Assembly: GCF_964355755.1 (NCBI RefSeq)
Contig: NC_092679.1
Span: forward strand, 17,350,932-17,414,931
Direction: 5' to 3'
Source: Antedon mediterranea
Taxonomy: Eukaryota; Echinodermata; Crinoidea; Comatulida; Antedonidae
DNA length: 64,000 nucleotides
Both the position numbers and the translations under genes were made by a program. Positions 17,067-52,101 of this stretch are shown here, in pieces. The notes beneath the pieces are model-generated. The model was not told where the DNA came from. It saw nothing but the letters and a program-made list of their open reading frames with translations, and searched no databases. The number at the start of each line of letters is the position of its first letter. Within the stretch, counting starts at the first letter, position 1.

Positions 17067-17092
17067 GGAAATTCCCAACACCAGTATAAAAG
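17067..17092 (+). promoter_or_regulatory. Core promoter of kinase gene 1: kappaB site plus TATA box
   Basis: GGAAATTCCC (17067-17076; complement GGGAATTTCC fits the Rel consensus) and TATAAAAG (17085-17092) are eight bases apart. Kinase gene 2 has the same pair with the same spacing (23012-23037), although the surroundings have diverged, which argues that both parts are kept by selection. Transcription would begin near 17115-17125. Confidence 0.75.
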
Positions 17093-17114
17093 AGGGGTTT
17101 CAATGAGGAGTGGT

Positions 17115-17199: not shown

Positions 17200-17982
17200 G
17201 TAAGTAATATTCATTATTACAGTATATCCCATAAAGGTTAATCCGCCGCGCAATGAAAAGCTCAACAGTCGCCCCGACGATTTTTTTGGCTTTGCCCGTT
17301 TATTTTTAAAGAGTGTGTCCACCTGAAAATATAATTTTTAAAAACATTGTTATACGGCCTAAGCTATCAACCATCGCTTTATTTGAACGATAATTGGATG
17401 AAAAACTAGTATTTTCCTGAAAACCATAATTTATTTTTATTTATTCATGGTTTATGCGTATTCATCCATTAAATGCATTTCTCCGCGAAAATAATTAACC
17501 AATCAGAGTTGTTCAGCAGGTAAATGATTCACGCGGGTATATAGATTCGCTTATCACTAGGAAAACATGAAGTTATAAATAATATTGATGATCATTGTGT
17601 AACTGTTTTCTGTGAAACATTGGATTATGCCTCTGTTTTCAGTTGAAAGGTGGTACAGTAGTACAATAGTAATTTCACACATAAATGACAGTACATGTGA
17701 TTATTTATTTGGAACTCTGTAGTACTAGGAAATAAGCCATCATTATCTCCGTAGATCTATAATTCACATGGACCTAGAGCCACGATACATGGCTCTGCTC
17801 CAGTATATAGCTATATAATACAATAAATAAAAGCCTTTCTTTTCTTATATTCGCAAAACTGTAGTTAAATTATGCAAATATCTTTTTAAATTTTTCACAT
17901 TTATTTTACTGACATCGTGTAAATACATCATCTGATCTTGCAGATTACTTATTTACCTGAGTGGTAGCATCAACAGTTTAAA

Positions 17983-20334
17983 ATGCCCCGTGGAACAACA
18001 TACGCAAATAATGCCTCTAACAGAAGTCTTGGTAGGGCTGGTATGGCCATGGGTAGTGCGCCAGTATCGAGATCTAGTGGAGGAAGCTCAAGTGGTGGAT
18101 ATGGCAGTTCCGGCAGTTCTGGGTCTTCATCTAAAACCTATGTTGATAACTCTTACAACCGTAGCCTCGGTAGAGTTGGCATGGATCATGGATCGATGGT
18201 AGCCTCTCGCAGTTCATCCAGCAGCAGTTCTACACCCAAAACCTATGTTGATAACGCATCCAACCGTAATCTCGGTAGAGTTGGTATGGAACATGGAACC
18301 ATGTCAGTCTCCAGCAGTTCCACAAGCAGCACACCTACACCTAAAACCTATGTTGATAATGCGTACAACCGTAGCCTCGGTAGAGTTGGCTTGAAGCATG
18401 GGACCATGTCAGTTTCCCGTAGTTCAGCAAGCAGCGATTCTAAGCCGGGTACCTACGTTGACAATCCATTCAACCGTAGCCAGGGTAGAGTTGGCATGGA
18501 TTATGGAACCAAGGTAGTTTCTTCGAAGAGCTCAAGCTCCAGTAAAGATCAGCTGAAAAATCCTGAAGTTAAGCTATATAAAGATAACGCTGCCAATAGA
18601 AGACTTGGTAGAGCCGGAAAACCTCTTGGAAGTATGCCTGTGAGTTCGAAGAAAACCAAATCAACTGATTACCTGCAGAAGGCTCACGAACACATGATGA
18701 ATAATCCGGTATGGTTTTTTTTAATGTTACCGATATTATCCTCACAACCTTACACAAGCCATCTCTACCATCATCAACGTATAACAATATAATTAATATA
18801 AAATGTTTTCATCTGATAGTAATATTAATAAAAACATATCATTAGAAATGAAACACACAGAATGAAGTATAAAACTCTAATTGGACAACATGCCTGAATT
18901 TTAAATTTTCCCTGATGAGCAGGATAAACAAAGCAATGAATCAATTAGTTATATTATAATTAGTGCACTATCATTGAGTCTACTTTACAAATGTGACCAT
19001 TTATGTAGAAACTTTGAGTCGTCGTTAAACCATGAAGAACTTTTTTAAAGAGGGGGAGGGGAGAACTTTTAAACCGACCATGGTAAAGAAATAAGGTGAA
19101 AATAGGGGAAGAGGAGGAGTTTGAGAGAGAGAGAGAAAGAGTGAATACACATCATCGCCCCAATCCTAGTCTATCGACTATGCCCCAATCGATACTCAAT
19201 CTTCATGATCATGGCTGAGGCTTTCATAATCATCGCCACACCTCTATTATAACCAATATTCACTTATGCAGGGAGTTGTTATTAAACAACTCCCTGACTT
19301 ATGTTATAGGCTACACACACATTTATACTATTTGCTATTCTTATTTACAGTATGAAGAGTTTGAAGCGCCGTTTGAAGCAGACGGAAATTTGGAGTCTCA
19401 TTTTATTGAACAGCTTAATCGTATGGAGTTATCAAGAAGTCGTACATCCACAAGAAAACCATTCGAATGGTACGAGGGTTCGATTATTAAGTTCGGTGAC
19501 CTCACTCTTGGTAAGAAAATAGGTCATGGTGGCTTTGGCGACGTTCATCACGGCCATATGAAAGGAAAGGAAGTTGCTATTAAGAAGTTACGTGTGCAGC
19601 GTGTGAGTCAAAAAAGGTTGACTCAGTTTGAAGACGAAGTTCGAATCTTCTGCAAACTCAAACACAAGAACATCATTACCTTCTATGGTGCCTGTATCGA
19701 GACACCTAACCTCTGCATCGTGATGGAGCTTATGAATGGAAGTCTGTATGACGAACTACATGTCAAAGATTACCAGTTCAGTGATACTGAGAAGACATTT
19801 ATTGCAATGGAAGTAGCCGATGGTCTGAAGTATCTCCATTCTAAGAATGTTGCTCACTGTGACATAAAACCAACGAATGTACTAATCAACATTGCTACTG
19901 AGGGTGCAGACAAGCACGAAGTAAAGATCACAGATTTTGGCTTGAGCAAGATCAAGAACTACTCCGAAACTTCGCATTCAAAGGCAGTGGGTGACGACAT
20001 GGTACGTGAACTTGGTACTCCGCGTTATTCAGCACCAGAGGTTCTTCGTGGTGAATTCCTTGACACCAATGGAATGATGATGACAGATGTTTACTCATTT
20101 GGTTTGGTAATATTTGAAATATTTAGTGGAGATGAGGTTTTTGACGATTACAACGCACACCAGCTGAGGAAGAATGTTGGAAATGGTGACCACAAGCCGT
20201 CATTACATAATTTGCTGTTGTCAGGTAAGCTGCAAGACTTGATGAGAAAATGTTGGGAAAGAACTCCAACCACACGTCCTACTGCTGGTGAATGCTTTGA
20301 TTCCTTAAAGAAGATTTACCAAACGAATGTTTAG
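17983..20334 (+). CDS. Repeat-kinase gene 1: YVDN-repeat region fused to a TKL-type kinase
   Basis: Two coding exons, 17983-18708 and 19351-20334 (phase 0; donor CCG|GTATGG, acceptor TTACAG|TATGAA), give about 569 residues. The first 242 hold six ~35-residue repeats with core YVDNxxNRxLGRVG, separated by Ser-rich linkers. The second exon is a protein kinase: Gly loop IGHGGFGDVHHG (~299), VAIKK lysine (~320), alpha-C Glu (~338), HCDIKPTN (~411), DFG (~437), YSAPEV and a CWERTPTTRPTA end. All catalytic residues are present; the Arg of HRD is Cys (non-RD). The C-lobe ending fits the TKL group. Start chosen because MPRG(T/S)TY is shared by all three paralogues just after a conserved 5' acceptor. 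No signal peptide or membrane segment, so probably cytosolic. Substrate unknown. AATAAA occurs at 20358. Confidence 0.88.
17995..18650 (+). repeat. Coding tandem repeat of gene 1, six units
   Basis: Units begin TTYANN, KTYVDN (three), GTYVDN and KLYKDN. The first and last (LGRAG...GSxPVS) resemble each other more than the inner ones (LGRVGxxHGxMxVS), so they look like capping units. The last is preceded by a KDQLKNPEV linker shared with gene 3. Confidence 0.85.
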
Positions 20335-20828
20335 TAGTTGCATCGGCGGAACGTCCTAATAAAGAAGGATGAGAACACCAATTTATTTTCTAAATAGGCA
20401 AATTTTGGTGATGGTTTTTTTATATCGATATACATGCGATAGCTAAATGTCGACACGCCTCTCTCAAGTTCAGTGAAAACAAATAACAAAACAAGAATAT
20501 CACGTATGAATGTTGAATCATGACCTCTCGCCATGCTAGCGGAGGTAATTAAAAATGAAATATATTTCACAAATTGCGGAACGGTTTAATTCTGTTTAAT
20601 TGACATAAACTATTTCTTTCATTCAATAGACTATACCTACCAACACGCGTATAATTTTAATAATGTAATATTTTTTATAGAAGAGGCTGCGCCAACCTTT
20701 CATTTGGTTATTTGTATTGATTATAAAATAGATATACACTGTGATATCTTAATATATGATTTAATACTATATAATATATATTATATATATATCTATCTTC
20801 GGAGATCCCGCCTCGTGAATAAAAATAC

Positions 20829-21060
20829 TGTAAGATGAGGGCGTATCAATTTGATCTCTGGTGCGCGTGCGTACAACTGAGGACTAGTGCTGTTCCGCCG
20901 TACCACGCCGAGAATGTTAAAGAGTCGCTATCCAATCGAGTTCGAACAATACCATGAAAGCCCCAGTGGTCTAATGGTTAGGACATCTGCATATCAAGCA
21001 GGCGGTCCGAGTTCGAGTCTCGGTTGGGGCGACTTTTTCTCATTCTCACAGATTTCCTCA
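20829..21060 (+). repeat. Dispersed repeat carrying the tRNA-like gene
   Basis: Matches 890-1085 both before and after the tRNA body (GAGGGxxTATCAATTTGAT, CTATCCAATCG, CTCATT...CACAGATT). Because flanks on both sides are shared, the whole ~200-base unit was copied, not just the tRNA. Confidence 0.6.
20960..21031 (+). tRNA. tRNA-like gene, anticodon ATC (Asp) if real
   Basis: A complete cloverleaf can be drawn: acceptor GCCCCAG/TTGGGGC, D stem GTCT/GGAC, anticodon stem TCTGC/GCAGG with loop ATATCAA, variable CGGT, T arm CCGAG-TTCGAGT-CTCGG. TTTTT at 21034 would end pol III transcription. The loop gives anticodon ATC, which decodes GAU, but animals normally use GTC for Asp and A34 is not expected in this box. 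With a decayed relative at 890-1085, it may be the head of a SINE-like repeat or a pseudogene rather than a working tRNA. Confidence 0.5.
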
Positions 21061-21556
21061 TCTTTATCGTTTCAAAATAATTAATTAAATTTCAGTATAT
21101 CACCGGGCGGTTTAGAATTAATGTTCTTTGCCTGATTTGTTTATATAATATATATTATATATATATATATTACATTTTTATTATGTTGTAGTTATAATCG
21201 ACATTCGGTTTTAAGTTTTATAATTACATTGTATAATGTATGTGTTGTGTCCGGGCATTATATAAGGACCTTTTCTCATTTTTATGTTTCTTTGTGTATA
21301 TGAAATTCAAATAGAGTAGATAGAATTGTAACTTTTTAACGTTTATTTTATATCTGTAAACAACATTGGTTTCTGCCATTTTATACTAGGCCTATCTTGT
21401 ACACATTACTATTTTTCGTTTTTAGACTGAGATTCCGGTGGCAGGTTTTGAGTTCGTAAAATAATAATATAATATTTTAGTTAGTTTATATTCGTTATTG
21501 TTACGGAGTGTATCTAAATGCAAGTAGGATAGAGAATATAATGCCTAAGTTTCAAT

Positions 21557-22575
21557 GTTGCTTATTTTATAAGATAAGATAAGATAAGATAAATCTTTAT
21601 TGTCATGAACACAACAAGGCGAACATGAAATTGGTTTTCCTTGATGCTTAAAAACACATACAATATATAAAACATTAAAAATATCAATACAATACATTAA
21701 AACTATATACAGTAGTAAACAAGTAAACAAACTATCTTTGGAATGTTGTGTTGGAAACATGAATAGAGTTGTGGACAAATGATTTCCTACATCGAGTGGT
21801 ATTGCACATTAAAGGACGAATTCTACCTGATTTATTAACAACATATTTATCATTCAATGGGTGTGAGTTATCTTCTTCCATTATTTTCTTAACTTGGCTA
21901 ATAACATCGCGGCTGTAAACTGCGTCGATAACATTGACATTCCTTCCTATTATTTTACTAGCAGTTTTCATAGCACGGTCAAGTTTCTTTTTATCATTAG
22001 CACTCAGACTATTGTACCAAACAACACAGTTGAAAGTTGCAACACTAAGAATAACACTCTGGTGAAACATAAAAAGTACATCATTATTCACTCTGAAAGA
22101 GTTCAGCTTTCTGAGAAGGTACAGCCGTTGATTACATTTTTTAACAATATTTACAGTATTTGCATTCCAATTTAATTCACAATCTACCGTTGTTCCTAAA
22201 TATTTATGTTCTTTTACAGTTTCTATCTTTTGGTCGTTTAATACAATATTATCAATAACACTTTTCTTCTTTCTGAAATCAAAAATTAATTCTTTGGTCT
22301 TATCCGCGTTTAATATAAGAAAATTTTTCTTACACCACGACTCAAACAACTTAAGTGTATTTCTATAATCATCTTCAGAGTTATGCTGAATTATACCCGT
22401 AACAACAGAATCATCTGCATACTTAACTATACTAACATAATTACTTTCAATTTTAAAATCATTTGTGTAAAGAGAGAAAAGAACAGGAGAAATAACACAT
22501 CCCCGAGGGACACCAGTGTTAGTGAAAAGTGAAAATCTTATTAAAAGTATAAAAGGAGCATTGCAAATAAGAAGC
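21557..22575 (-). mobile_element. 5'-truncated L2/CR1-like LINE with reverse transcriptase
   Basis: On the minus strand an open frame of about 280 residues carries reverse transcriptase motifs: GVPRGCVISPVLFSLYTNDF, KYADDSVVTG (the YADD core), LNADKTKELIFDF and HKYLGTTVD. The 3' end is AATAAAGATTTATCTTATC followed by ATCTT repeats at 21570-21592. Endonuclease and 5' RT motifs are missing, so it is truncated and inactive. Kinase gene 2 has the same downstream sequence without the insert (TTTCAATGTTGCTT then AGCTTAATAAATT, 27900-27935), which fixes the insertion boundaries and shows insertion after duplication. Confidence 0.85.
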
Positions 22576-22671
22576 TTAATAAATTCCAACTAAAACGTTG
22601 ATTTATGGTGCTTTGTTGTCAGTTTAATTTATAAGAGATTACAGTACAGTAATTGCATCTTTAAAGAATTT

Positions 22672-22754
22672 ACCAATCACAAAAGCGACTCGAATAGTCC
22701 ATCGGTTGTGATTGGTCAAATCTTTGCGTTGCGTCCTAGTGGGAAACAAGTTTT
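22672..22754. mobile_element. Partial MITE, family 2
   Basis: ACCAATCACAAAAGCGA, TGATTGGTCAAAT and TTTGCGTTGCGTCCTAGTGGG match one arm of the palindromes at 60476-60650 and 62386-62556. The other arm is missing or decayed. Confidence 0.6.
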
Positions 22755-23011
22755 AACAAGGAAGTTCGTAAATTAAACAGCGATCCTCAACTTCGGAACG
22801 GTTAGATCTATTTGTAATTCATGAATTAATAAAGTAATGCTTATTCAATATTAATTAGTCAACCTTTTGGTTTTGAATACATTTCTGATGAATAAACATC
22901 TACGGTACTAAACATGGTACGGTTGATAAAATTACATGTATGAAAATAAAATAAAAATCAATAATCCTTAACCAATCACAGAGCTCATTGTCTCAAATTT
23001 CGACAAACTCT

Positions 23012-23037
23012 GGAAATTCCCAACACTAGTATAAAAG
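23012..23037 (+). promoter_or_regulatory. Core promoter of kinase gene 2: kappaB site plus TATA box
   Basis: GGAAATTCCC (23012-23021) and TATAAAAG (23030-23037) are spaced exactly as in gene 1. GAGCTCATTGTC upstream also matches CTGCTCATTGTC of gene 1. A TATA promoter with a kappaB site next to it is typical of inducible genes; inducibility is inferred. Confidence 0.75.
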
Positions 23038-23059
23038 AGAGTATTGATTTAGGTAGTGT

Positions 23060-23175
23060 CACATCGTGCCGTTGTCCGGGAACAGTGACATATCTAGATG
23101 CATTTTTATCCTGCACTTATTTTATAATATTGATTGATTGACACAGGAGAATAATATTTTGGCAGTAAGGCTCAG
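23060..23175 (+). other. Non-coding first exon of kinase gene 2
   Basis: Start estimated from the TATA box; donor CAG|GTAAGT with GT at 23176. It shares GTGCCGTTGTC, ACAGTGACAT and GCATTTTTATCC with gene 1. It would join the acceptor CAG|ATTGCATTTAGCTGAG at 23883, 37 bases before the start codon. Confidence 0.65.
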
Positions 23176-23920
23176 GTAAGTATTCTATATTACCTCCCTT
23201 TTTTTCATAAATTTTCTTATATTTTTCTATACTACATTTACAAAGGAAGTTTAAAAAGTTGACACAAAGAAGATATGCCCAAATAAATGCACCGTTAACC
23301 TTTTTTGTTTCCAAACATCGTTAAAACATATATATCATTGCTGTTAGGCAGTATTTTATGTAACATTTTATAATTGAATTGTGCTAGTTTCTTATCCTTC
23401 GTTTTACTTTCCGTAACCAAGATGTTTTCCAATCTATGATGTTGTCATAGAAGTACTCTTCCTATTAGTTGTGACATTGGAATACAGAAATATTTCACAT
23501 TCTATTGTCTCGTTCGTGTTTAAGTAACCAGGGGAAAATGTCCCGGGGACAGCCTAGAAACATGTGTTTGATTAACTCGAATAGATTCGCCTATTACAGT
23601 GAAAAACAGGTGTTAAATATATTGATCTGTATTCTGGGAAACATTGTATTAGGCCATACAGATAGCAGGCCTACCTCTGTGATTAGCTGAAAGGTGTAAT
23701 AATACAATAGGCCTACTGTAGTACAATACTCATTTCACGCATATTATTGATTTATATGTGGTTATTCTTTAGAAAGTAAACCATATGTGTTATACATATT
23801 TATTCATTACACACAATAAATAAAAGCATGTTGCATGTTTTCTACTTTATCTCCAAATAATAGTATACCGGTACATCTTGCAGATTGCATTTAGCTGAGC
23901 TGTGAATTAACAGTTTGAAA

Positions 23921-26900
23921 ATGCCCCGTGGAACAACATACGCCGACAATTCCTCTAACAGAAGTCTTGGTAGGGCTGGTTTGCCTATGGGTAGTGCTCC
24001 AGTATCTAGTGGAGGAGGAAGCTCTGGTGGAAGCTTATGTAGTGGATTGGGAGAAATCTTAAGTGGTGGATATGGAGGAAGCTCAAGTAGTGGATATGGC
24101 AGTAGCAACTACACTGGTAGTTCTGAGTCTTCTTCTAAAACCTATGTTGATAACTCTTACAACCGTAGTATTGGTAGAGTTGGCATGGAACATGGATCGA
24201 AGGTAGTCTCCTGCAGTTCAGCAATCAGTGATTCCACACCTAAAACCTATGTTGATAACTCTTACAACCGCAGTTTCGATAGAGTTGGCATGGAACATAG
24301 ATCGAAGGTAGTCTCCTGCAGTTCAGCAATCAGTGATTCTACATCTAAAACCTATGTTGATAACTCGTACAACCGCAGTTTCGATAGAGTTGGCATGGAA
24401 CATGGATCGAAGGTAGTCTCATGCAGTTCAGCAATCAGCGATTCTGCACCTAAAACCTATGTTGATAACTCTTACAACCGCGGTTTCGATAGAGTTGGCA
24501 TGGAACATGGATCGAAGGTAGTGTCCTGCAGTTCAGCAATCCGCAATTCTACACCTAAACCCTATGTTGATAACTCTTACAACCGCAGTTTCGATAGAGT
24601 TGGCATGGAACATGGATCGAAGGTAGTGTCTTGCAGTTCAGCAATCCGCAATTCTACACCTAAAACCTATGTTGATAACTCTTACAACCGCAGTTTCGAT
24701 AGAGTTGGCATGGAACATGGATCGAAGGTAGTCTCCTGCAGTTCAACAATCAGCGATTTTACACCTAAAACCTATGTTGATAACTCTTACAATCGCGGAT
24801 TCGATAGAGTTGGCATGGAACATGGATCGAAGGTAGTCTCCTGCAGTTCAGCAATCAGCGATTCTACACCTAAAACCTATGTTGATAATTCACCGAACCG
24901 TAGTTTCAATAGAGTTACCATGAAACATAGAACCATGGTAGTCCCTCGCAGTTCAGCAAGCAGCAAACCTACACCTAAAACCTATGTTGATAATTCACCG
25001 AACCGTAGTCTCGGTAGAGCTGGCATGGAACATGGAACCATGGTAGTCCCTCGCAGTTCAGCAAGCAGCGATTCTACAACTAAAACCTATGTTGATAATT
25101 CACCGAACCGTAGTCTCGGCAGAGTTGGCATGAAACATGGAACTATGGTAGTCCCTCGCAGTTCAGCAAGCAGCAAACCTACACCTACAACCTATGTTGA
25201 TAACTCTTACAACCGTGGTATCGGTAGAGTTGGCATGGAACATGGAACCATGGTAGTCCCTCGCAGTTCAGCAAGCAGCAAACCTACACCTAAAACCTAT
25301 GTTGATAATTCACCAAACCGTAGTCTCGGCAGAGTTGGCATGGAACATGGAACCATGGTAGTCCCTCGCAGTTCAGCAAGCAGCGATTCTACAACTAAAA
25401 CCTATGTTGATAATTCACCGAACCGTAGTCTCGGCAGAGTTGGCATGAAACATGGAACTATGGTAGTCCCTCACAGTTCAGCAAGCAGCAAACCTACACC
25501 TAAAACCTATGTTGATAACTCTTACAACCGTGGTATCGGTAGAGTTGGCATGGAACATGGAACCATGGTAGTCCACCGCAGTACAGCAAGCAGCGATTCT
25601 ACACCTAAAACCTATGTTGATAATGCCTCTAACAGAAGACTTGGTAGAACTGGGAAGCCTCTTGGAAGTATGCCGGTGAGTTCAAAGAAAACCAAATCAA
25701 CTGAGTATCTGCAGAAGGCTCACGAACACATGATGAATAACTCGGTATGTTTTTGTTTTTTTTTTTCATTATACAATATCTTTCCTCTCTATCAACACCA
25801 TCGTATATAAACATCATTTTTAGCTTTTTCAGGATTTAGTAATAATAAGCAAGATGGCGCAGGAAAAAAGTATACAATTAGAAAGTAGGCCTAACGTAAT
25901 TAAATGAACATGCTTGAATTCTACATTATAGGAATGAATGAATTATTAATGTGCACCATATCAGAAGCAGTTTGACAATTATGTAACTGTGAAAGTCTTT
26001 GTTAAACCTTCATTTTAGAGTTAAGGAAATGCAAAACTAAGATGAAAAGTGGAGAATGGTGAGGGGTGGGGGAAGTGAAGAAAATGGCTCGAAATCTTCT
26101 ACTCAATATGCAGACATCTTTAATTGTACACCATATATATTATTATTATATTATTATTACTGTTGCTGTTGCCGTTGCCGTTGCTTTTATTGTTATTGTT
26201 ATTATTTACAGTATGAAGAATTTGAAGCGCCATTTAAAGCAGACGGAAATTTGGAGTCTCATTTGATTGAACAGCTTAATCGTATGGATTTATCAAAAAT
26301 AAAAAAGAGAAAACCATTTGAATGGTACGATGGTCCGATTATTAAGTTCAATGACCTCGCTCTCGATAAGAAAATAGGTCATGGTGGCTTTGGCGACGTT
26401 CATCACGGCTATATGAAAGGAAAGGACGTTGCTATTAAGAAGTTACGCGTGCAGCGTGTGAGTCAAAAGAGATTGACTCAGTTTGAAGACGAAGTTCGAA
26501 TCTTCTGCAAACTCAAACACAAGAACATCATTACCTTTTATGGTGCCTGTATCGAGAAACCTAACCTCTGCATCGTGATGGAGCTTATGAATGGAAGTCT
26601 GTATGACGAACTGCATGTCAAAGAGCACGAGTTCAGTGATACGGAGCAGACATTTATTGCAAGGGAAGTAGCTGATGGTCTGAGGTATCTCCATGTTTTG
26701 AATGTTGCTCACTGTGACATCAAACCAACGAATGTACTAATCAACATTGCTGCTGATGTTGCGAAGCACCAAGTAAAGATTACAGATTTTGGCTTGAGCA
26801 AGATCAAGAACAAGCATTCAGATGCAGCTGGCGACGACATGGTACGTGAACTTGGTACTCCGCGTTATTCAGCACCAGAGGTTCTACGCGGTGAATTCCT

Positions 26901-27174
26901 TGATACCAATGGAATGATGATGGCAGATGTTTACTCATTTGGTTTGGTAATATTTGAAATATTTAGTGGCGATGAGGTTTTTCACGATTACAACGCGCAT
27001 CAGTTGAGGAAGAATGTTGGAAATGGTGACCACAAGCCGCCTGTACAAGATCTGGGGTTGTCTGGCCCGCTGCAAGACTTGATGCTGAAATGTTGGGAAA
27101 GATCTCCAACCACACGTCCTACGGCTAGTGAATGTTATACATCTTTACAGTTGATTTACCTAACGACTGTTTAG
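23921..27174 (+). CDS. Repeat-kinase gene 2: 16 YVDN repeats plus TKL-type kinase
   Basis: Coding exons 23921-25744 and 26212-27174 (donor TCG|GTATGT, acceptor TTACAG|TATGAA, phase 0) give about 928 residues. The first 608 are mostly repeats: seven units (2-8) of the SYNRxxxRVGMEHGSKVVS type and seven (9-15) of the SPNRSLGRVG/SYNRGIGRVG type with VVPRSSAS linkers, between a first and a last capping unit. Kinase landmarks are IGHGGFGDVHHG, VAIKK, QFEDEV, HCDIKPTN (non-RD), DFG and YSAPEV. The activation segment is a few residues shorter than in gene 1. It lacks the KDQLKNPEV linker of genes 1 and 3. Start set at ATG 23921, giving MPRGTTY. A likely polyadenylation signal AATAAA is at 27365. Confidence 0.88.
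23933..25685 (+). repeat. Coding tandem repeat of gene 2, 16 units of 105 bp
   Basis: Inner units are 35 codons (105 bp). Units 10-12 (24977-25291) and 13-15 (25292-25606) form a higher-order duplication of exactly 315 bp, with the same order of subtypes. Type 2-8 units carry a Cys after VVS that other units lack. Most changes between units keep the YVDN, NR and RVG positions. Confidence 0.88.
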
Positions 27175-27839
27175 TAGGAAGGATTTTGCATCGGTGGAGC
27201 ATATTTTTAAAGAGGAAAATTTTGGTGGTGTTTCTTTTTAATAGATGTCTATGTATCGTTGAGTGTACATACATACATGTTTGGTTTATAATGTTCATTT
27301 GTATGTAGTTTAAGTTGACTGCACCACTAATGAGTGTGTTGTCACTGATTCAAAAGTGTTTGTCAATAAAGTTACTACTTTTACAGCTACATACCTAAAT
27401 ACCAGCTCACCCCTTAACATTTTTTGAAAACAAATATTTTCTAAGGAAACTTGAATTCCTTACGGATAAATATCCTAACGTATCCTAACGCGTGTAATTA
27501 AATAAATAGTATAAGTATATTTTAAATAAGAGCGAACCTTAATTTGGTTATTTGTATTTGCTGATCAAATAGATATATTTAATTTTAATGTATATAGTAC
27601 GTTGCATAGTTTTAATCGACATTTGATTTTAAGTTGTTACAATTACATTGTACAATGTATGTGGTCGGGCATTACATAATGTTCGAAATTGTGTATTTTG
27701 TGTAGTATATGATAAGGTGTTAAATATAGATAGAATTTTAACTTCAAAGTTTAGTATACTGTAAACAAGAATTTCAGCCTGAGTTTCCGATGGCAGGTTT
27801 GGTGTTAGTAAAACTATAACTATATAATATCATTCATTC

Positions 27840-28130
27840 ATTTTATATTCGAAGTCGGAGTGTATCTAAATGCAAGTAGGATAGGGAGTTTAGGGCATAT
27901 ATTAAGTTTCAATGTTGCTTTTGCTAGCTTAATAAATTTCAAATACGGTAGGGCCTACAGTATGAATGTCGATTTATTGTGCTTTGTTATAGTAAAATAT
28001 CATGATGAAGATGATGATGGTGATGAAAATGACGACGAGAGCAATAGACAGTATGGTATTGATAAATGTTCTCCGCATGTAAAATGGGTATGTGATGATG
28101 ACGTCATACATAATACGGTTGCCAGTATCT
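27840..28130. repeat. Downstream block of gene 2, duplicated after gene 1 and before gene 3
   Basis: GGAGTGTATCTAAATGCAAG, CAATGTTGCTT, CTTAATAAATT and GATTTATxGTGCTTTGTT also occur at 21500-21556/22570-22615. From CAATGTTGCTT onward, including GACGACGAGAGCAATAGACA and CATACATAATACGGTT, it matches 29700-29950. The block marks the unit of tandem duplication. An open frame here looks fortuitous. Confidence 0.7.
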
Positions 28131-28998
28131 TCATTAATATCATTAATGTTACTTTATTTTATTTTTTTATTTTATTCAATCAAAACCAACAGCGATAAAT
28201 ACCGCCACTAACAGGTTTGAAACATAAAACAATACAACATCAAAAACGGTTAACAATAAAATACAGATAAAATATATATATATATATATATAAAACATAG
28301 ATTGGCATGCCATAAACAATTTCAATTAAAACAGGTTATGCAGGCTGTTCAAGAAGTGAACACATCATCGTCCTCTTAAAATAACCAAGTCTATCATTAA
28401 AAATATCGATATGATTGCTATTTAGATTATTAAATGTATAAGGTAGTCTATGAAAAAGTCCCCTCTTAGTACAGTCGACACGGCTAAAAGGAATATGCAA
28501 TAAATGTCTATTTCGTGTACGACCAGGAACATTTAAACTAAATAGTGAAATTAATGAACAGTCATATTTAGAATTTAAAATATTATATAAAAAAACCATA
28601 TCAGATATCGTTCGACGATTGCTGACAGAATCAATGGAAAAGGCAAAATTAACACAGTTATAAGACAGGAATCGAACAAACTTCCGTTGAACAGTGTCGA
28701 TTCGACGGGCCTGACATGGAGAAATTGAATTGAAAATTGCGGAACAATATTCAAGGTGAGGACGTATAATAGATTTGTATAAAGATAAAAGTGCCCTGCC
28801 GTCGTTCATAAACCTACAATTTCTCCATATTAAGCCCATCATTCTATTAGCTTTTGACAACACATGATTAATATGTGAAAAAAAATTTAATTTACTATCA
28901 ATAAAAATACCTAAATCTTTCCATACATAAACCATCTCAAGATCATGTCCACTCAGATTATAATTGAAGAGCACAGGCCTTTTTTTTTTTTTTTTTTT
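28131..28998 (-). mobile_element. 5'-truncated non-LTR retrotransposon (LINE) fragment
   Basis: A minus-strand frame of about 212 residues (28974-28336) matches the C-terminal part of LINE reverse transcriptases: KDLGIFIDSKLNF, YKSIIRPHLEYCSAIFN, RRIDTVQRKFVRFL. The catalytic YxDD box is absent, so it is 5' truncated. An A-rich 3' tail (AATAAAATAAAAAAATAAAATAAAG on the minus strand) lies at 28150-28180. The paralogous site near 29955 lacks the insert. Oddly, the 5' edge is an 18-base A run (28981-28998, T on the plus strand). Confidence 0.8.
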
Positions 28999-29085
28999 AC
29001 AAGTTACAAGTATTATATTAGCCTATAGCTACTTATCAGGCCTAATGAATATGATTATGACATTTCCCGTCACTTGAGGAGGAAT

Positions 29086-29374
29086 GTTGGAAATGGTAAC
29101 ATTCACGGAATAATTAAGTTCAGTAGTGCCGTGTGCAAACCAGCCAATCAGGTAGCTCAGTGGTCGGTATTTCCAAGTTTCATCAAGACGGGGAATACCC
29201 TCCACCTTCTCACTGAACAAGGAAAGGGAAGAGAGGCAACGATATGTGTTTCATTATATGAGTTACCGTATGTTGCCGAATGAAAGACTAATATAATTAT
29301 ATATTTATCGACTGATGATCCGAACGAGGCAACAAACGTACGAGCTAGGTCCAAAGTCCACACTCTGAGACTGA
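29086..29374 (+). promoter_or_regulatory. Duplicated promoter and 5' exon, likely used by kinase gene 3
   Basis: It matches the promoter and first exon of the NO VEIN-like gene (35480-35785), including AGTAGTGCCGTGTGCAAACC, CCAATCAGG (CCAAT box, 29144), GGTCGGTATTTCCA, ACGGGGAATACCC, CGACTGATGATCCGAACGAG and GCAACAAACGTACGA, ending in a good donor GA|GTAAGT (GT at 29375). The nearest compatible acceptor is CAG|ATTACATTTAGCTGAG at 30485, the 5' acceptor of kinase gene 3. No TATA/kappaB block is present before gene 3, so I infer this copy drives it. Confidence 0.55.
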
Positions 29375-29497
29375 GTAAGTAATCATTATCAAGCCTACTA
29401 GACTAACTAACTAAGCCTAGGCTATATATATTCCAATGAACCATCATATCATATTATCATATAACTGTCTAACCTAGGCCAGCCTACCCTACTAAAG

Positions 29498-29781
29498 GGG
29501 GTGATGTACACCATTAGCGCTACCTCCTGTTTTTGCGCTCGTTACAATCGGTAATTAATTAAAAATATCAACTAACACTATTTAATTTATTGATAAAACC
29601 ACAGTTAAATAGGCCTAGGCTCTGAACAAATAGACTTATCCCTATCCGGAGATCATGCTAGCTTGAACGATATGCGGGCCATGCCAAACAGCCTTTATGG
29701 CATAGTTTTAATGTTGCTTTTCCTAGCTTAATAAAATTCAAATACGGTACAGTATAAATGTCGATTTATTGTGCTTTGTTT

Positions 29782-29813
<32 letters not shown>

Positions 29814-30020
29814 GGGGATGATGATGATGGTGATGATTATGACGACGAGAGCAATAGACAGTATGGTATTGATAAACGTTCTCTACATGATGTAAGATGG
29901 GTATGTGATGATATGTCTAATTGACCATCATACATAATACGGTTATCAGTATCTTCTGTTACAAGTACTATAGCTACGCTAATCAGGCCTAATTAAAATG
30001 ATAATGACATTTCCCGTCAT
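29498..30020. repeat. Continuation of the duplicated blocks upstream of gene 3
   Basis: 29498-29620 (CACCATTAGCG, TCGTTACAATCGGTAATTAA, TTATTGATAAAACCACAG) matches 36270-36370 in the first intron of the NO VEIN-like gene. 29700-30020 matches the downstream block of gene 2 (27900-28130 plus 28999-29060) and includes a (GAT)n microsatellite at about 29783-29855. Confidence 0.7.
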
Positions 30021-30522
30021 TGTTATTCCTGGGAAAAAGGAAGTAAGTTTATGGATTAATGTCATTTAAGTAAGTTCCGTCTGTATAATCAATGAGGGAG
30101 CTCGGTGGTGGGTATGTCTAAATTTCCAAACAGGAAAGTGTTTATTTTAGTTGCCGAATTTAATGAGTCATATCCGTTGCTGCTTTACAATGTTTGGTGT
30201 TTTGCCGTCATAAAGTAAGGGGAGCATACGTTCCGTGCTCCTCAGTACTACTAAATACGTAGCTCATTTCACTTAAAAAGAATCAGGCGAATTCAGGGTA
30301 ATTTAAATAATATTAATAGTAAAAAAAAATAGATGTCAAAATTACTTAATTTTTTAGCTGTCAAAGGAGGAGAGGGCATCCCTGGATCCGCTCCATGTAA
30401 AATGTAAATAAGTGTTTACAGTTAACATAATTATACTTATCATTCATTTTTAGTGACATCCAAAATGTATAATGACGTCTTTCAGATTACATTTAGCTGA
30501 GTTGTAAGCAAACTGTTTTAAA

Positions 30523-33121
30523 ATGCCTCGTGGATCAACATACACTGATAATGCCGCTAACAGAAGACTGGGTAGGGCTGGTTTGCCTATGGGTAGTGCT
30601 CCAGTATCGAGATCTAGTGGAGGAAGTAGTTATCTTGGTAGTTGTGGGTCTTCTAAAACATACGTTGATAATGCATACAACCGTAGTTTTGGTAGAGTTG
30701 GTATGGAACATGGAACCATGGTAGTCTCTCGCAGTTCATCAAGCAGCAATTCTAAACCTGGTACCTATGTTGATAATGCATACAACCGTAGTTTTGGCAG
30801 AGTTGGTATGGAACATGGAACCATGGTGGTCTCTCGCAGTTCATCAAGCAGCAATTCTAAACCTGGTACCTATGTTGATAATGCATACAACCGTAGTTTT
30901 GGTAGAGTTGGTATGGAACATGGAACCATGGTAGTCTCTCGCAGTTCATCAAGCAGCAATTCTAAACCTGGTACCTATGTTGATAATGCATACAACCGTA
31001 GTTTTGGTAGAGTTGGTATGGAACATGGAACCATGGTAGTCTCTCGCAGTTCATCAAGCAGCGATTCTAAACCTGGTACCTATGTTGATAATGCACACAA
31101 CCGTAGTTTTGGCAGAGTTGGTATGGCACATGGAACCATGGTAGTCTCTCGCAGTTCATCAAGCAGCGATTCTACACCCAAAACCTATGTTGATAATGCA
31201 TCCAACCGTAGTTTTGGTAGAGTTGGTATGGAACATGGAACCATGGTGGTCTCTCGCGGTTCATTAAGGAGCGATTCTAAGCCTGGTACCTACGCTGACA
31301 ATGCATTCAACCGTAGCCAGGGTAGAGTTGGCATGGATCATGGAACCATGGTAGTTTCTTCGAAGAGCTCAAGCACCAGTAAAGATCAGCTGAAAAATCC
31401 TGAAGTTAAGCTATATAAAGATAACGCTGCCAATAGAAGACTTGGTAGAGCCGGGAAGCCTCTTGGAAGTATGCCTGTGAGTTCGAAGAAAACCAAATCA
31501 ACTGAGTATCTGCAGAAGGCTCACGAACATCTGATGAATACTCCGGTACGTGTCTTATTTCTAATAAGAGTTTTTAAATTACAATTACCTAGCTAAAGTA
31601 TACTATATCTTATACCCCACACTTTCTTTCCTCTCAAATCCATTCTATCGTTATCAGAATGTGAAAACGTAACCTGCTCTAAAAAAAATCATCGTATGAA
31701 ATAGAAAATTGTACGTATTGTGAAATGTTTGAATACAATACAAAAGGAAAACAAATATGACAATTTATTGCTATTAAACAAAATATAAGGTACTGTATTA
31801 TTATTGCTTTCAATTTTTTATTATAATGTTATCATATTATATAATACAGAATAAAATGGATTAATATAAAATCTTGTATACATCATTATGCTAACTATTT
31901 TCTTTATGATGATTTCATTCCATTAATATCAAACCTTTTTTAAATAAATAAATAAATATCTTTAATCTGTAACTCTAACGGAGTGTTCTAGATGGCATAT
32001 CATAAATAAATGGCCTTCGAGTTGTTAATGAAGGCTTGTCTGTCCATTCCAACATTATCGAGAACTTTGTTTTGGCTATACGACTTCATTCATACAATTT
32101 AAATACGCATCTTTTTGCTATCATTATTATTCTTGTTATTATTATTATTATACAGAATGAAGAGTTTAAACCACTATTTAGAGCAGACGAAAATTTGAAG
32201 TCGCATCTGACTGAACAGTTTATTCGTATAAACTTACTGCGGAAACAAACCAGTGCAGCCACAAGAAAACCATTTGAATGGTTCCAGGGTCCGATTATTA
32301 AATTCTGTGACCTCAGTCTCGGTGACAAAATTGGTCACGGTGGCTTTGGCGACATTCATCACGGCTATATGAACGGAAAGGAAATTGCTATTAAGAAGTT
32401 ACGTGTGCAGCGTGTGAGCCAGAAGAGGTTGACTCAGTTTGAAGACGAAGTTCGAATCTTCTGCAAACTCAAACACAGGAACATCATTACTTTCTATGCT
32501 GCCTGTATCGAGACACCTAACCTCTGCATCGTGATGGAGCTTATGAATGGAAGTCTGTATGACGAACTGCATGTCAAGGAAACCGAGTTCAGTGATACGG
32601 AGCAGACATTTATTGCAATGGAAGTAGCCGATGGTCTGAGGTATCTCCATGCTAGGAATGTTGCTCACTGTGACATCAAACCAACGAATGTACTAATTGC
32701 TGCTGATACCGCAAACAAGCTTGATGTAAAGATTACAGATTTCGGATTAAGTATGATAAAAGACTACTCTGACATGGCACGTGAACTTGGTACTCCGCGT
32801 TATTCAGCACCAGAGGTTCTACGTGGTGAATTCCTTGACACCAGTGGAATGATGATGGCAGATGTTTACTCATTTGGTTTGGTAATATTTGAAATATCTA
32901 GTGGCTATGAGGTTTTTTACGATTACAACGCTCATCAGTTGAGGATGAATGTTGGAAATGGTGACCACAAGCCGCCGGTACATAATTTGCTGTTGCCAGG
33001 TAAGCTGCAAGACTTGATGCTAAAATGTTGGGAAAGAACTCCAACCACACGTCCTACTGCTGGTCAATGCTTTTCATCTTTAAAGGATCTGTACAAAAAC
33101 TATGTATTCAATCGGTGCTGA
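30523..33121 (+). CDS. Repeat-kinase gene 3: 9 YVDN repeats plus TKL-type kinase
   Basis: Coding exons 30523-31545 and 32156-33121 (donor CCG|GTACGT, acceptor ATACAG|AATGAA, phase 0) give about 662 residues. Nine repeats occupy residues ~5-320; units 2-6 are almost identical at DNA level. Then come the KDQLKNPEV linker, a capping repeat and the shared KTKSTEYLQKAHEH segment before the splice. Kinase landmarks: IGHGGFGDIHHG, IAIKK, QFEDEV, HCDIKPTN (non-RD), DFG, YSAPEV. The activation loop is the shortest of the three (DFGLSMIKDYSDMARELGTP). The second exon starts NEEFKPLF rather than YEEFEAPF, and the N-terminal extension before the kinase is the most diverged. Catalytic residues are intact, so activity is plausible. 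Confidence 0.88.
30535..31490 (+). repeat. Coding tandem repeat of gene 3, nine units of 105 bp
   Basis: Units 2-6 carry GTYVDNA(Y/H)NRSFGRVG with SRSSSSSxSKP linkers and differ at only a few bases over 105 bp each, implying very recent expansion or homogenisation. Unit 7 begins KTYVDNAS, unit 8 GTYADNAF and unit 9 (KLYKDNAANRRLGRAG) is the cap. Confidence 0.87.
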
Positions 33122-35433
33122 ACCAAAGCTGTGTGTGGAGTGAGCGAGTGATATGTGGCAACATGAATTTAAAATTTGCACCGTGGAAAAACGGTGGTGA
33201 TGCTTATACGGTACAGTGTGGTGTTTTTTTTTTAATGGATTTTAAGCGGTGAAAAATGTTCTAATTTCTTCCAATCATTTACAGCCAATCTTTTAAGAAC
33301 ATTTTGCAGTAATTTATTTTCTCATACGACCCTCCGTTGAGGAATTATTCCATAATTACACCAATACCGGAAAATGCATATAATATATATAAACTGATAC
33401 AAGAGATAGGTACTTGTCATTTCAATTGCTAATTTGACCTGCATTAAAGAAAGAATAAAAGTAAGTGTAATTGATAATATCGTATTATATTGATATATAT
33501 TCCCTCGAGCAAAATATCATTCCCTCGGCGGGGATGTCAAATCTTATATTTCACCTCTACGCAGGCAATATCTGTATAATATTGCATTTATTACTGTTAA
33601 GTGTTATATACGTGTCTGTATTGTGTGTAATATAATCATCAAGGAAAACAAATTTCATGTTCAAATATGCCAAATGTTTAGTCTGTGATATAAAGAAACA
33701 TCAGTAAAATATAATAATTGAATTTGTTTATTGTTAGGCTACTTTTGCCTATCTGGGTATTGAAGTGTTTCTTCAAAACAATCACTAATGTGCACTTATA
33801 GGGTAAATTTACCGAAATTAGGCTTCCATGATGTTTTTATAATAAATTAATGCTTATTCAATATTAGTAACTGGAAGCTACATTTACCGTATTTATTCGA
33901 ATAAACGCTTGCTTAGTTAACCGCAGGGCCGAACTACTTTACTGATATGTGAGTTTTACAGAATCAATAAACAACGACACACATTGCTGGTACTAAAAAC
34001 TAACAGAATAACATTAATTGTATCAACTAACAAAAGTTTCAGTTGACTAACAATAGAACAATTAGGCTACCAACACTGTGAAAATTGTAATACAAAATCA
34101 AAAGGGGTGGGACTGAATTCCTTATAGTAAATTGGACGCGCTTGTTAAAACGCTACAAACAAGAGTGAATTTGAAAACAAAAATTGGGGTTTTAAAAACT
34201 ACTCATATAAACAATCCTGTACATTCAATCAAATTGTATTTTAAAGTCACAAATAGGCCTATTACTCTTGCCTCTCGTACAAAAATGAAAGAAACGAAGA
34301 GCAATATCAACCAATCTAATTGGAAAGCTAGGATGGGTCCTCCTAAATACCAAGACCTACCAAGAACTACCAAGACCTACCAAGAACTACCAAGACCTGT
34401 CAATTTAAAGTGTTAATTTAACGAAATATGATAGATATAGACTTCTAATAGCATTTCCAACAATAAAACCTTAATTTTAGCGCGATATAGACACCAATAT
34501 TTGACGCAATACGGACTTTGTGACGCAATGTATGCATCAACTCAGTTCGTTTCACGAACGCAAAGCTTGTCAATTATTTAACATTTTTGGTGTCTATATC
34601 GCGCTAAAATTGAGGTTTTATTGTTGGAAATGCTATTAGAAGTCTATATATATCATATTTCGTTAAATAAATTAACACTTTAAATTGACAGGTCTTGGTA
34701 GGTCTTGGTAGTTCTTGGTAGGTCTAGGTAGGTCTTGATATTTAGGAGGACCTCCAATCCTAGCGGGTCCTCCTCAATACCAAGACCTTAGCTTGTCGAT
34801 TATTTAACATTTTTGGTGTCTATATCGCGCTAAAATTAAGGTTTTATTGTTGGAAATGCTATTAGAAGTCTATATATATCATATTTCGTTAAATTAACAC
34901 TTTAAATTGACAGTCTTGGTAGTTAGTTCTTGGTAGTTCTTGGTAGGTCTTGGTATTTAGGAGGACCCATCCTATAGTTTTAGCATGGTCAAACAGTCAT
35001 CAAAATCGGAGAACAAATTGTAATGCTCGATTATGTTTCTCTTTTAATTTATAGGGATTATTTGAATATGCATGTTACCATATTACACCCCGTATTACAC
35101 CAAAAACACGGCGCATTATGACCCATATTCATTATTATTATTTATATTATTTATAGGCTTTACAGAGAATATTATATAGAATAATAGGGCGGTATTGGTT
35201 GGGAGTTCTATATGGGCCCATACGAAGATGTCACAATATAATATAGGCTATAAATACATAATAGTGAAACAAACTAACAATTACGAATAAATTAGAAAAA
35301 AATATGGAAGGCTACTTATTATCAGGTATATTTTTATTTTTATTTTTTAAACTAACATCGAACAAATCCATCAATAAAATAGAATTACTGTATAACACCA
35401 TAGGCAACTTTCTATTGACAATGATAACACATT
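33122..35433. other. Region between kinase gene 3 and the NO VEIN-like gene
   Basis: Holds the gene 3 3' end (AATAAA at 33453), a short remnant of the L2-like LINE tail near 33637-33662 (CATCAAGGAAAACAAATTTC), a terminus like that of the 4841 element near 33889 (ACCGTATTTATTCGAATAAA) and the foldback at 34329-34975. No gene is supported. Confidence 0.55.
34329..34975. mobile_element. Foldback element with minisatellite ends, plus a tandem deletion copy
   Basis: The left end TAGGATGGGTCCTCCTAAAT and the right end GGAGGACCCATCCTA are inverted repeats. Each arm holds a CCAAGACCTACCAAGAACTA-type minisatellite, then ~130 bases (TTAATTTAACGAAATATGAT to GCGCGATATAGACACCAA) repeated in reverse in the other arm. 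A first full unit runs to about 34761. There a new left end (TAGCGGGTCCTCCTCAATAC) starts a second unit that lacks most of its left arm and ends at 34975. No coding capacity. Confidence 0.82.
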
Positions 35434-35785: not shown

Positions 35786-36590
35786 GTAAGTATGTAATCA
35801 TGGCGGGAATACACGCGAGCCTAGGCTATATTTTACAGTGAACCCTTCTATCATATACTGCCTAGGCCAGCCTACCCTGCTAAACAGACTAGGCTAGCTA
35901 GCTGTAGAGTGATGGGACATCTACTGTAGTAGGAAAAGTAACATTCATGTTGCCCTGGTGTGTAAGTTTGCTGCTAATGCAGTTTCGTATAATTGCGAGT
36001 AATTTTAAGGGGTAAGTTTGAAACTGCATAATAGTAGTGCCCAGTCTGTTTAATGAACACTATGCATGCATATTTAGTATTTGACTGGCTATCAGCACTA
36101 ATTCAAGTGTTCTGTTTTTTACTGGCAACGTCAATCGTACATAATCATTAATTCTATTGTCTTATCGACACAGGGAACTAGAGAACCGGACTAACGTAAT
36201 TTTACATATTATATACAGATAAAAAATAATTTTTAATTTCATTTTAGTTATCAAGAGAGGAGGGGAAGCGCACACCACTAGCGTTCCTCTTGGTTTTATG
36301 CTCATTACAATCAATACTTAATTAAAAATATCAATTAACACTATATAAATTATTGATAAAAACACAGTTATACAATGCATTTCAAATGGAAATTTAATTT
36401 GTAAGTCTTTCTTTATTTGGTTCATCCAGTTATTTCTTGGTCTTCCTACAGGTTGTTTTACTTTCCTGTTAGTTTCCTTCATTGTTTGTTTGATTAGGGT
36501 ATCATCCGGTAATCTAATTATGTACTATATGCTAAAATCGATAAACAAACTTGTTATATTTGTTTTTCAGTAATACTTTCTATAGGCATC

Positions 36591-51500: not shown

Positions 51501-52101
51501 AGGTAGGCCTTCTCATGTAGCTGACCTACCAGTTCATAATTTGCCTAGGCCAGTCCACACTGAAGGTTCACAATTTCAAACACCACCAAACCCTCAAAGA
51601 ACTGTGCATAGCGGTATGTTCAGTGGGTCACTTTCTACTGCTGTTGAGTTAGTTGAAGAAGAACTGAAACCTGATCTTCTTGATTTATCACTCCCTGATC
51701 ATGATGCCCTTAACAACCAACCAAGCCCTAAAGACGAACTTGTAGGAAAATATGGAGAAAAACTTGTTTATCATCTGTTAAAGAATCAGTACGATGATAA
51801 TGCAACTGTACGTTGGGTCAATGAAGAATATGAAACCGGTTTACCATACGACATTGAAATTCAAACAGTTGGAGAAAAAGCCTGCATAGAATACGTGGAA
51901 GTAAAAGCTACAAATTCTTCAGAGAAGAAATTCTTTGAAATTTCTTCCAACGAAGTTGCATTTGCGCAGCAACAAATGCCTAACTACCACCTATATCGTG
52001 TTTACAATACTTTAAGAAAAGAAAGTGTTAGAGTTTGCCATTTGAAAAATCTAGGTGATAAAATGAATAGAAGACAAGTGGTATTGTTAATGAAAATTTA
52101 A
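36591..52101 (+). CDS. NO VEIN/sacsin-like giant protein: LOTUS-like domain, GHKL ATPase, DUF3883
   Basis: 26 coding exons, all phases consistent (9,243 nt, ~3,080 residues): 36591-38525, 38746-39199, 39370-39536, 39741-39866, 40380-40549, 40951-41153, 41446-41801, 41983-42234, 42411-42552, 42636-43196, 43378-43558, 43710-43845, 44205-44330, 44427-44574, 44736-44848, 44983-45139, 45324-45557, 45734-45973, 46186-46367, 46832-47036, 47280-47428, 47804-49643, 49807-49941, 50590-50700, 50864-50968, 51287-52101. Residues ~6-76 look like an OST-HTH/LOTUS domain. Residues ~180-370 hold three QMPTFGNITFG repeats, and an acidic stretch precedes the ATPase. Residues ~1390-1480 form a GHKL ATPase: ELVQNADDN, then GHKGIGFKSVFRVTD. 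Residues ~2960-3050 form DUF3883 (YGEKLVY, PYDIEI, VEVKAT), nuclease-like with D and ExK present. Plant NO VEIN shares the ATPase-DUF3883 pair. The start follows the acceptor at 36570. Exact function unknown; soluble and probably ATP-binding. Confidence 0.9.
41801..41982 (+). other. GC-AG intron in the NO VEIN-like gene
   Basis: The exon ends TCAGAG at 41801 and the intron begins GCAAGT, the strong consensus for rare GC donors; it ends at TTTTAG before 41983. Phase 0 is kept. Reading through would reach a stop 10 codons later. No GT donor in the neighbourhood keeps frame with the next exon. Confidence 0.75.
43915..44023. mobile_element. Palindromic MITE, family 1, copy 3
   Basis: The best-preserved copy: AAGCTCTGTCTACACTATCA and AACTTTATGTGACAAAAAAA at the left, with the reverse complement at the right, forming a hairpin over almost its whole 109 bases. 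It lies in the NO VEIN-like intron 43846-44204. Confidence 0.82.
50113..50300 (+). mobile_element. tRNA-derived SINE fragment in a NO VEIN-like gene intron
   Basis: GGTGGTTATGATGC (A-box-like) and GGATTCAAGTCC (B-box, about 50157) are spaced as in a tRNA, then comes a non-tRNA body with AAAGACTTGTAATAGACTTG. The 3' limit is approximate and no A-rich tail is clear. Confidence 0.6.

Follow-up and report, generated by a model that had tools for sequence, protein, structure and literature searches.

What is the function of a regular array of short repeats that precedes a protein kinase domain? This question is raised by a 64,000-nucleotide stretch of DNA (the window), in which three adjacent genes, all on the plus strand, each contain an exon coding for 35-residue repeats followed by an exon coding for a kinase (Table 1). 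A motif search yields exactly 6, 16 and 9 repeat units for genes 1, 2 and 3, the same numbers as had been given in a preliminary description of the locus. The genome holds a fourth copy, on contig C8, with eight units and the same architecture. It looks like an animal genome: an exon of an HCN-type channel matches PDB entries of HCN1, HCN3 and HCN4, which suits an animal without pointing to a phylum, while COX1 was not found in the genome. In all four genes the junction between the repeat and kinase exons is a phase-0 GT-AG intron, the introns themselves being diverged, and the reading frames are open throughout both exons. Splicing of the repeat exon to the kinase exon is predicted for all four genes.

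Table 1. Features of the three repeat-kinase genes, numbered from the first nucleotide of the window.
Feature	Position	Strand	Description
Gene 1 core promoter element (TATA box context)	17076..17094	+	19 bases, identical in gene 2
Gene 1 putative intron 1, 5' UTR exon to repeat exon	17200..17943	+	GTAAGT donor, GCAG acceptor
Gene 1 repeat exon	17983..18708	+	242 aa, 6 units
Gene 1 coding intron	18709..19350	+	642 bp, GT..AG, phase 0
Gene 1 kinase exon	19351..20334	+	327 aa plus stop; TKL-like, HCD non-RD
Gene 2 core promoter element (TATA box context)	23021..23039	+	19 bases, identical in gene 1
Gene 2 putative intron 1	23176..23883	+	GTAAGT donor, GCAG acceptor
Gene 2 repeat exon	23921..25744	+	608 aa, 16 units
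Gene 2 coding intron	25745..26211	+	467 bp, GT..AG, phase 0
Gene 2 kinase exon	26212..27174	+	320 aa plus stop; HCD non-RD
Gene 3 repeat exon	30523..31545	+	341 aa, 9 units
Gene 3 coding intron	31546..32155	+	610 bp, GT..AG, phase 0
Gene 3 kinase exon	32156..33121	+	321 aa plus stop; HCD non-RD

The TATA elements preceding genes 1 and 2 show 0 mismatches to each other, and when up to three mismatches are allowed they are the only two matches in the window, where a mean of 0.07 is expected; gene 3 lacks the element in the same search. Genes 1 and 2 also appear to have a 5' UTR exon in common, followed by a first intron of which the donor is conserved between the two genes, while the acceptor of gene 1 was recognised by eye only, BLAST giving no pairing with the other genes.

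The Pfam Pkinase model matches each of the three kinase exons in the window over nearly its whole length (E-values from 1.7e-52 to 2.7e-55), which, together with the phase-0 junctions and assuming the predicted splicing, bears out the earlier description of a complete kinase joined in frame to the repeats. All four kinases contain the glycine-rich loop (G-loop), VAIKK or IAIKK, HCDIKPTN, DFG and APE motifs. From the KPTN in the catalytic loop we take the kinase to be of the Ser/Thr type. The HxD motif reads HCD in all four, making them non-RD kinases. For gene 1 (326 residues in the Pfam and PDB queries, the first Tyr being left out), the nearest relative of solved structure is CTR1 (PDB entry 3ppz, E 2.5e-37), followed by B-Raf and KSR, and the best 60 of 330 sequences in the PDB search are CTR1, Raf and KSR entries. 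Judging from these relatives and the catalytic motifs, the kinase is TKL-like. The gene 1 exon aligns with the plant CTR1, B-Raf and KSR kinases across the whole catalytic domain; unlike them, the repeat-kinase genes have HCD in place of HRD and an amino-terminal repeat array, and no other Raf or CTR1 domain is present among the Pfam matches of the six window coding exons (E up to 1).

When the four genes are compared in pairs, dN/dS of the kinase exon is between 0.285 and 0.436 in all six pairs, and kinase exons are 81–91% identical versus 43–63% for the aligned columns of the introns, again in six of six pairs. These values point to purifying selection acting on the kinase exon, and the four genes look functional. 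Conceivably, the two exons of each gene are transcribed separately, or the genes are duplicates in decay, and the lack of the promoter element in gene 3 would fit such an explanation; given that all four genes share the phase-0 GT-AG junction although their introns have diverged, and given the open frames and the apparent constraint on the kinase, we consider it highly improbable.

The repeat unit, of 35 residues, has the motif Y-x-DN-x2-NR-x2-GR-x-G. Its core of around 24 residues (Y-x-DN-x2-NR-x2-GR-x-G-x3-G-(T/S)-x2-V) is followed by a Ser-rich linker of about 10 residues. There are 39 units in the four genes according to the motif search, which itself demands Tyr, Asn(+3), Asn(+6) and Arg(+11); finding these four in 39 of 39 units is therefore partly by construction. 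Among positions that were free or loose in the search, Gly(+13) is present in 38, Asp(+2) in 37 and the first Arg in 38 of the 39. Units are spaced by 35–36 residues within the arrays (36 in the fourth gene) and by 40–41 residues for three penultimate units. Doubled gaps are absent, which means that no inner unit was missed. In an alignment of 22 units, 10 of the 35 columns are invariant or nearly so. The codons for the conserved residues vary synonymously, indicating that the protein is conserved and not the DNA alone. The repeat exons contain 20–23% Ser, no Trp and a net basic charge; of the hydrophobic residues, Ile makes up 0–1.8%, Leu 1.2–4.1%, Phe 0.4–2.1% and Val 6.6–9.5%.

No credible match to the unit was obtained from Pfam, NCBIfam, PHROGs, the PDB, prokaryotic genomes or viral contigs, where single units were put to Pfam only and NCBIfam and PHROGs were queried with whole arrays. 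The only Pfam match to 22 of the 39 single units (E up to 10) is Nbl1_Borealin_N, at a chance-level E-value of 0.21, in agreement with the earlier remark that no named repeat family with this core was recognised. Whole-protein scores for UN_NPL4 (PF11543) exceed the cut-off of 21.9 bits for gene 2 (43.1) and gene 3 (25.7) and remain below it for gene 1 (16.7). No stretch passes alone, however, the best ones covering 15–29 positions of the 80-position model, and none of the 22 single units matches; we read the whole-protein scores as sums over near-identical copies. ScyF is matched by gene 2 with an E-value of 3.8e-15 and three passing stretches, at 55.9 bits versus a curated cut-off of 350. 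Matches of whole repeat exons to GrlR, HTH_64 and PHROG families are likewise attributed to score inflation by near-identical copies, as is that to a PHROG portal protein (E 0.0024, one passing stretch). In the PDB, no solved structure matches the repeat; entry 9l5v aligns with residues 14–30 of the unit at chance level (E 0.13). Repeat profiles gave 37 and 26 pattern stretches in prokaryotic genomes and 71 and 95 in viral contigs, none of them confirmed by tblastn, in scans seeded by one or two short peptide patterns that diverged relatives would escape. An alignment of the kinases gave 30 stretches in viral contigs, none confirmed, and the gene 3 repeats matched nothing in phage records. A literature search for six core octamers as exact strings found no paper, and broader topic searches returned nothing on the repeat. 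Among eukaryotes, the sequences covered are this genome and the PDB chains. Within this genome, all repeat matches found fall inside the four genes.

The first and last units were described earlier as consistently different from the inner ones, and over four genes they do form a distinct class: between genes, the likeness of terminal units to each other exceeds that of terminal to inner units by 19 percentage points, a difference reached in 0 of 2000 within-gene label shuffles (39 units). At the protein level, first and last units are 63% alike, versus 47–54% for either compared with inner units, and the end units are still recognisable over array lengths from 6 to 16. The units might fold into a repeat domain, for instance a regular solenoid, with the end units as caps, forming a rigid scaffold or recognition surface for the kinase. 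Inner units in the window have a constant length of 35 residues, except next to the last unit in genes 1 and 3, which would also suit such a fold. We nevertheless judge it unlikely. Ile, Leu and Phe are scarce and Trp is absent for a hydrophobic core, even if Val is not rare; the linkers are Ser-rich, and the spacing is loose, as seen in the fourth gene and the penultimate units. In DNA comparisons the last unit scores 0.56–0.59 with inner units and hardly more, 0.60, with first units, and no solved structure matches. The repeat exons of all four genes fall on the disordered side of a charge-hydropathy plot and the kinase exons of all four on the folded side, in what is a coarse test; this goes against the earlier suggestion of a defined, capped structure rather than disordered filler. 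AlphaFold gave a mean pLDDT of 37 for the repeats, with an alignment of 16 of 17 prepared rows (the omitted row being from gene 2), and of 32 for a kinase exon as control, with a 3-row alignment and strands absent. As an undoubted kinase exon scores only 32, these models say nothing about folding.

Amplification and homogenisation of the inner units, with the ends keeping older sequence, would also suffice to explain distinct end units. Taken further, the repeats would be a mostly passive spacer resulting from expansion of an exonic minisatellite, the end units being old ones beyond the homogenisation zone. Tandem Repeats Finder detects a period of 105 bp in all three window arrays, and inner units from one gene resemble each other more closely (81% for amino acids, 87% for nucleotides) than do inner units from different genes (71% and 80%). 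In gene 2, units 10–12 and 13–15 form a three-unit higher-order repeat, as identified by eye. The pN/pS of inner units is 0.78 in the fourth gene, so that constraint on those units is weak. In genes 1–3, it is 0.36–0.45, and the fact that it is below 1 in all four genes, together with the retention of the core residues in genes on two contigs despite codon drift, makes a passive spacer rather unlikely. Were it correct, the locus would amount to a kinase duplication of the ordinary lineage-specific sort, with a minisatellite in its coding sequence.

The reading we tentatively prefer is that the four genes form a small family of functional TKL kinases, probably located in the cytosol, with a flexible, multivalent docking and phosphorylation array on the amino-terminal side of the kinase. 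It comes close to the earlier idea of the repeats as a scaffold or a multi-site substrate. Each unit core would bind a partner or another array, and the Ser/Thr-rich linkers would be phosphorylated by the attached kinase or by a partner kinase. Valency would be set by the number of units, and clustering of arrays would bring the kinase domains together. The docking reading is favoured by the architecture conserved in four genes, the constraint on the kinase, the core residues kept with codon drift, the low inner-unit pN/pS of genes 1–3, the Ser-rich, Trp-free and basic composition of the repeat exons, which plot as disordered, and the variation of array length from 6 to 16 units with stable ends. 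Counting against it, conservation of the core is above that usual for a disordered linker, which could mean a small fold, and the inner units of the fourth gene are weakly constrained. Self-phosphorylation of the array is also not assured, as non-RD kinases have a tendency to low in vitro activity (PMC8463890). If the array does dock or cluster, a repeat family as yet without a name would be controlling a kinase via copy number, and with paralogues of 6, 8, 9 and 16 units an effect of valency would be directly testable. A bolder version is very unlikely: the unit would be the founder of a repeat family that is new and restricted to one lineage, its copies would drive self-association or the clustering of partners, and the non-RD TKL kinase would become a signalling assembly tunable by array length, perhaps one serving innate immunity. 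An extracellular ligand-binding surface seems unlikely as well, because the amino-terminus (MPRG..) reads as hydrophilic.

A different use of the array would be phosphorylation of the unit Tyr by a tyrosine kinase, followed by recruitment of SH2 proteins, in the manner of the substrate domain of p130Cas. Tyr starts every unit, being a residue that the counting motif required; on the other hand, the attached kinase is, by its KPTN catalytic loop, of the Ser/Thr type, and the conserved NR and GR are left unexplained. The pattern is that of p130Cas (PMC3983058), in that many copies of a Tyr motif are located in a probably flexible, disordered region, but the units read Y-x-(D/N)-N, mostly Y-x-D-N, and not YxxP, the kinase is in the same chain, and no SH3 domain is found among the Pfam matches of the six window coding exons (E up to 1). 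We regard this use as improbable.

Other kinases resemble the repeat-kinase genes in part. The plant immune kinase EFR is also non-RD, with the Arg of HRD replaced by Cys (PMC8463890), while a receptor part was not seen on reading the repeat-kinase genes; the shared Cys is no evidence for a shared function. The RHIM of RIPK kinases gave no Pfam match in the window exons (E up to 1) or the 22 units (E up to 10), in searches where HMMER filters may drop weak matches. IRAK1, which consists of a death domain, a ProST region and a kinase, likewise has a Ser/Thr-rich stretch amino-terminal to the kinase, and its ProST region is an autophosphorylation target (PMC9972678). Death domains are absent from the Pfam matches of the six window coding exons (E up to 1) and, unlike in IRAK1, the array here is a regular 35-residue repeat.

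Three repeat-kinase genes are arranged head-to-tail in the window, each containing one repeat exon and one kinase exon (see table). Motif searches count 6, 16 and 9 units of the 35-residue repeat (core Y-x-DN-x2-NR-x2-GR-x-G) in genes 1, 2 and 3, respectively, and together with the coding exons they show that the preliminary description was correct in listing three adjacent genes with these unit numbers and a kinase. All three repeat exons start with MPRG(T/S)T. The predicted proteins, with exons summed, contain 569, 928 and 662 residues, and the coding introns (642, 467 and 610 bp) start with GT, end with AG and are located between codons. In every gene, by reading, the interval from the inferred upstream acceptor to the ATG contains an in-frame stop, which supports this ATG as the start.

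Coding exons and promoter elements of the repeat-kinase genes
Feature	Positions	Strand	Remark
TATA element, gene 1	17076-17094	+	common to genes 1 and 2
Gene 1 coding exons	17983-18708 (repeat), 19351-20334 (kinase)	+	
TATA element, gene 2	23021-23039	+	common to genes 1 and 2
Gene 2 coding exons	23921-25744 (repeat), 26212-27174 (kinase)	+	
Gene 3 coding exons	30523-31545 (repeat), 32156-33121 (kinase)	+	

The genome (354.4 Mb, 18 contigs), in which an HCN-type channel exon suggests an animal source, contains one further copy on contig C8; it has 8 units, and its kinase shares 72% identity with that of gene 3. The 140-bp intron of this copy has the same junction position as in the window genes, which argues against the rival reading that repeat and kinase exons belong to separate transcripts. 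Judged from sequence comparison, the genes look real, with good evidence for their splicing and function. Kinase exons are 81-91% identical and introns 43-63% (aligned columns), while kinase-exon dN/dS among paralogues is 0.285-0.436 over six gene pairs. The TATA element has no other match in the window with up to three mismatches (0.07 expected), gene 3 included; after it comes a conserved stretch with a GTAAGT donor at its end. BLAST shows the acceptor region directly upstream of the ATG to be conserved in genes 2, 3 and 4; in gene 1 the resemblance is visible by eye only.

All genome matches to the repeat fall within the four genes: 8/8 for the gene 3 array (E up to 0.001) and, at E up to 10, 11/11 for the gene 1 array, 26/26 for the gene 3 first unit and 20/20 for its last unit plus tail, these counts being lower bounds with every first-look candidate scored (26, 12, 26 and 20). 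The motif was not found within about 3.6 kb of eight other kinase loci (L013-L020), out of 76 other kinase matches. Such matches are grouped at G000 C10:20.23-20.33 Mb, C9:20.88-20.97 Mb and C8:5.14-6.44 Mb, most with long open frames, which suggests a kinase expansion.

Tyr, Asn(+3), Asn(+6) and Arg(+11) are present in 39/39 units, partly forced by the search motif, which requires them; unit spacings show that no inner unit was overlooked. Among residues less constrained by the motif, Gly(+13) and the first Arg are found in 38/39 units and Asp in 37/39. Codons at conserved positions differ synonymously, so the residues are maintained by selection. This argues against the rival reading of the units as a passive spacer, as does inner-unit pooled pN/pS below 1 in all four genes: 0.45, 0.44 and 0.36 for genes 1, 2 and 3 and 0.78 for the fourth gene, the last value being more in keeping with a spacer. 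No credible match to the repeat was found in Pfam, NCBIfam, PHROGs, PDB, prokaryotic genomes, viral contigs or phage records. Taken whole, the gene 2 and gene 3 repeat exons exceed the Pfam cut-off for UN_NPL4, and that of gene 2 scores with ScyF; both are read as inflation by repeated copies. At the level of sequence searches, it is established that the repeat is unnamed in Pfam, NCBIfam, PHROGs and the other libraries searched, which is a narrower statement than undescribed, since animal proteomes, where relatives would be expected first, are not among them.

The first and last units differ from the inner ones, as claimed before. Across genes, core protein identity is 73% for first and 77% for last units; first versus last units share 63%, terminal versus inner units 47-54%, and inner units 71% between genes and 81% within a gene. 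The first-last likeness is plainer in protein, because in DNA first and last units share 60% and terminal and inner units 53-59%. In genes 1, 3 and 4 the next-to-last unit contains a KNP(E/G)VKL linker, gene 2 being without it; with the terminal and inner classes, this indicates that unit position has identity. The distinct ends fit structural caps, and also fit old end units around a 105-bp minisatellite whose inner copies were amplified and homogenised. About half of the preliminary interpretation is supported: it stands for genes that look real, a repeat unnamed in the libraries searched and distinct ends, with caps just one of two fitting readings.

A capped fold of the units is the corresponding rival. 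The AlphaFold model of four units plus tail (16 alignment rows) has a pLDDT of 37, with two short helices, the longer of which (residues 142-154), adjoining the kinase junction, has a pLDDT of about 60. The kinase-exon control (three alignment rows) reaches only 32, with zero strands, so that the modelling fails on its control. By charge-hydropathy, all four repeat exons fall on the disordered side and all four kinase exons on the folded side.

Pfam Pkinase spans the domain in all three window kinase exons, and the solved kinases nearest to that of gene 1 are plant CTR1, B-Raf and KSR (phmmer, best 60 of 330 matches). HRD is the motif of most kinases; all four repeat-kinase genes have HCD in its place, while of eight other kinase loci compared seven have HRD and one HLD. 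The catalytic-loop KPTN is indicative of Ser/Thr specificity, which argues against the rival reading of the units as a phosphotyrosine array. According to PMC8463890, kinases without the HRD Arg are linked to innate immunity, in animals as well as plants, and show low in vitro activity, and plant EFR likewise has Cys at this position; for the present genes, the immune association may serve as a lead only. The reading we prefer, the likeliest one although somewhat less likely than not, is an intracellular TKL kinase carrying a flexible multivalent array. Such an array would work similarly to the IRAK1 ProST (PMC9972678) and p130Cas (PMC3983058) types, without belonging to either. The rivals (capped fold, passive spacer, phosphotyrosine array and separate transcripts) are all possible, each being less likely than this reading.

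Other features surround the genes. A tRNA-like gene (20960-21031, +), called tRNA-Asp, has anticodon ATC, unusual for Asp, and may be a tRNA-derived element. RVT_1 (reverse transcriptase) retroelement fragments are located at 21735-22589 (-), between genes 1 and 2, and at 55400-56251 (-); an ORF at 28339-29022 (-) resembles them by eye, but a Pfam search of it (E up to 0.01) gave no match. At 34340-34990, a stretch that by eye resembles a short mobile element is bracketed by recurring CCAAGACCTA and AGGTCTTGGT motifs of opposite orientation. Downstream of the cluster, open frames at about 36585-52101 (+) may form a multi-exon NO VEIN-like gene, since one of them (51235-52098, +) contains a NOV_C domain (E 2.4e-20); the four other frames tested there have no Pfam match.
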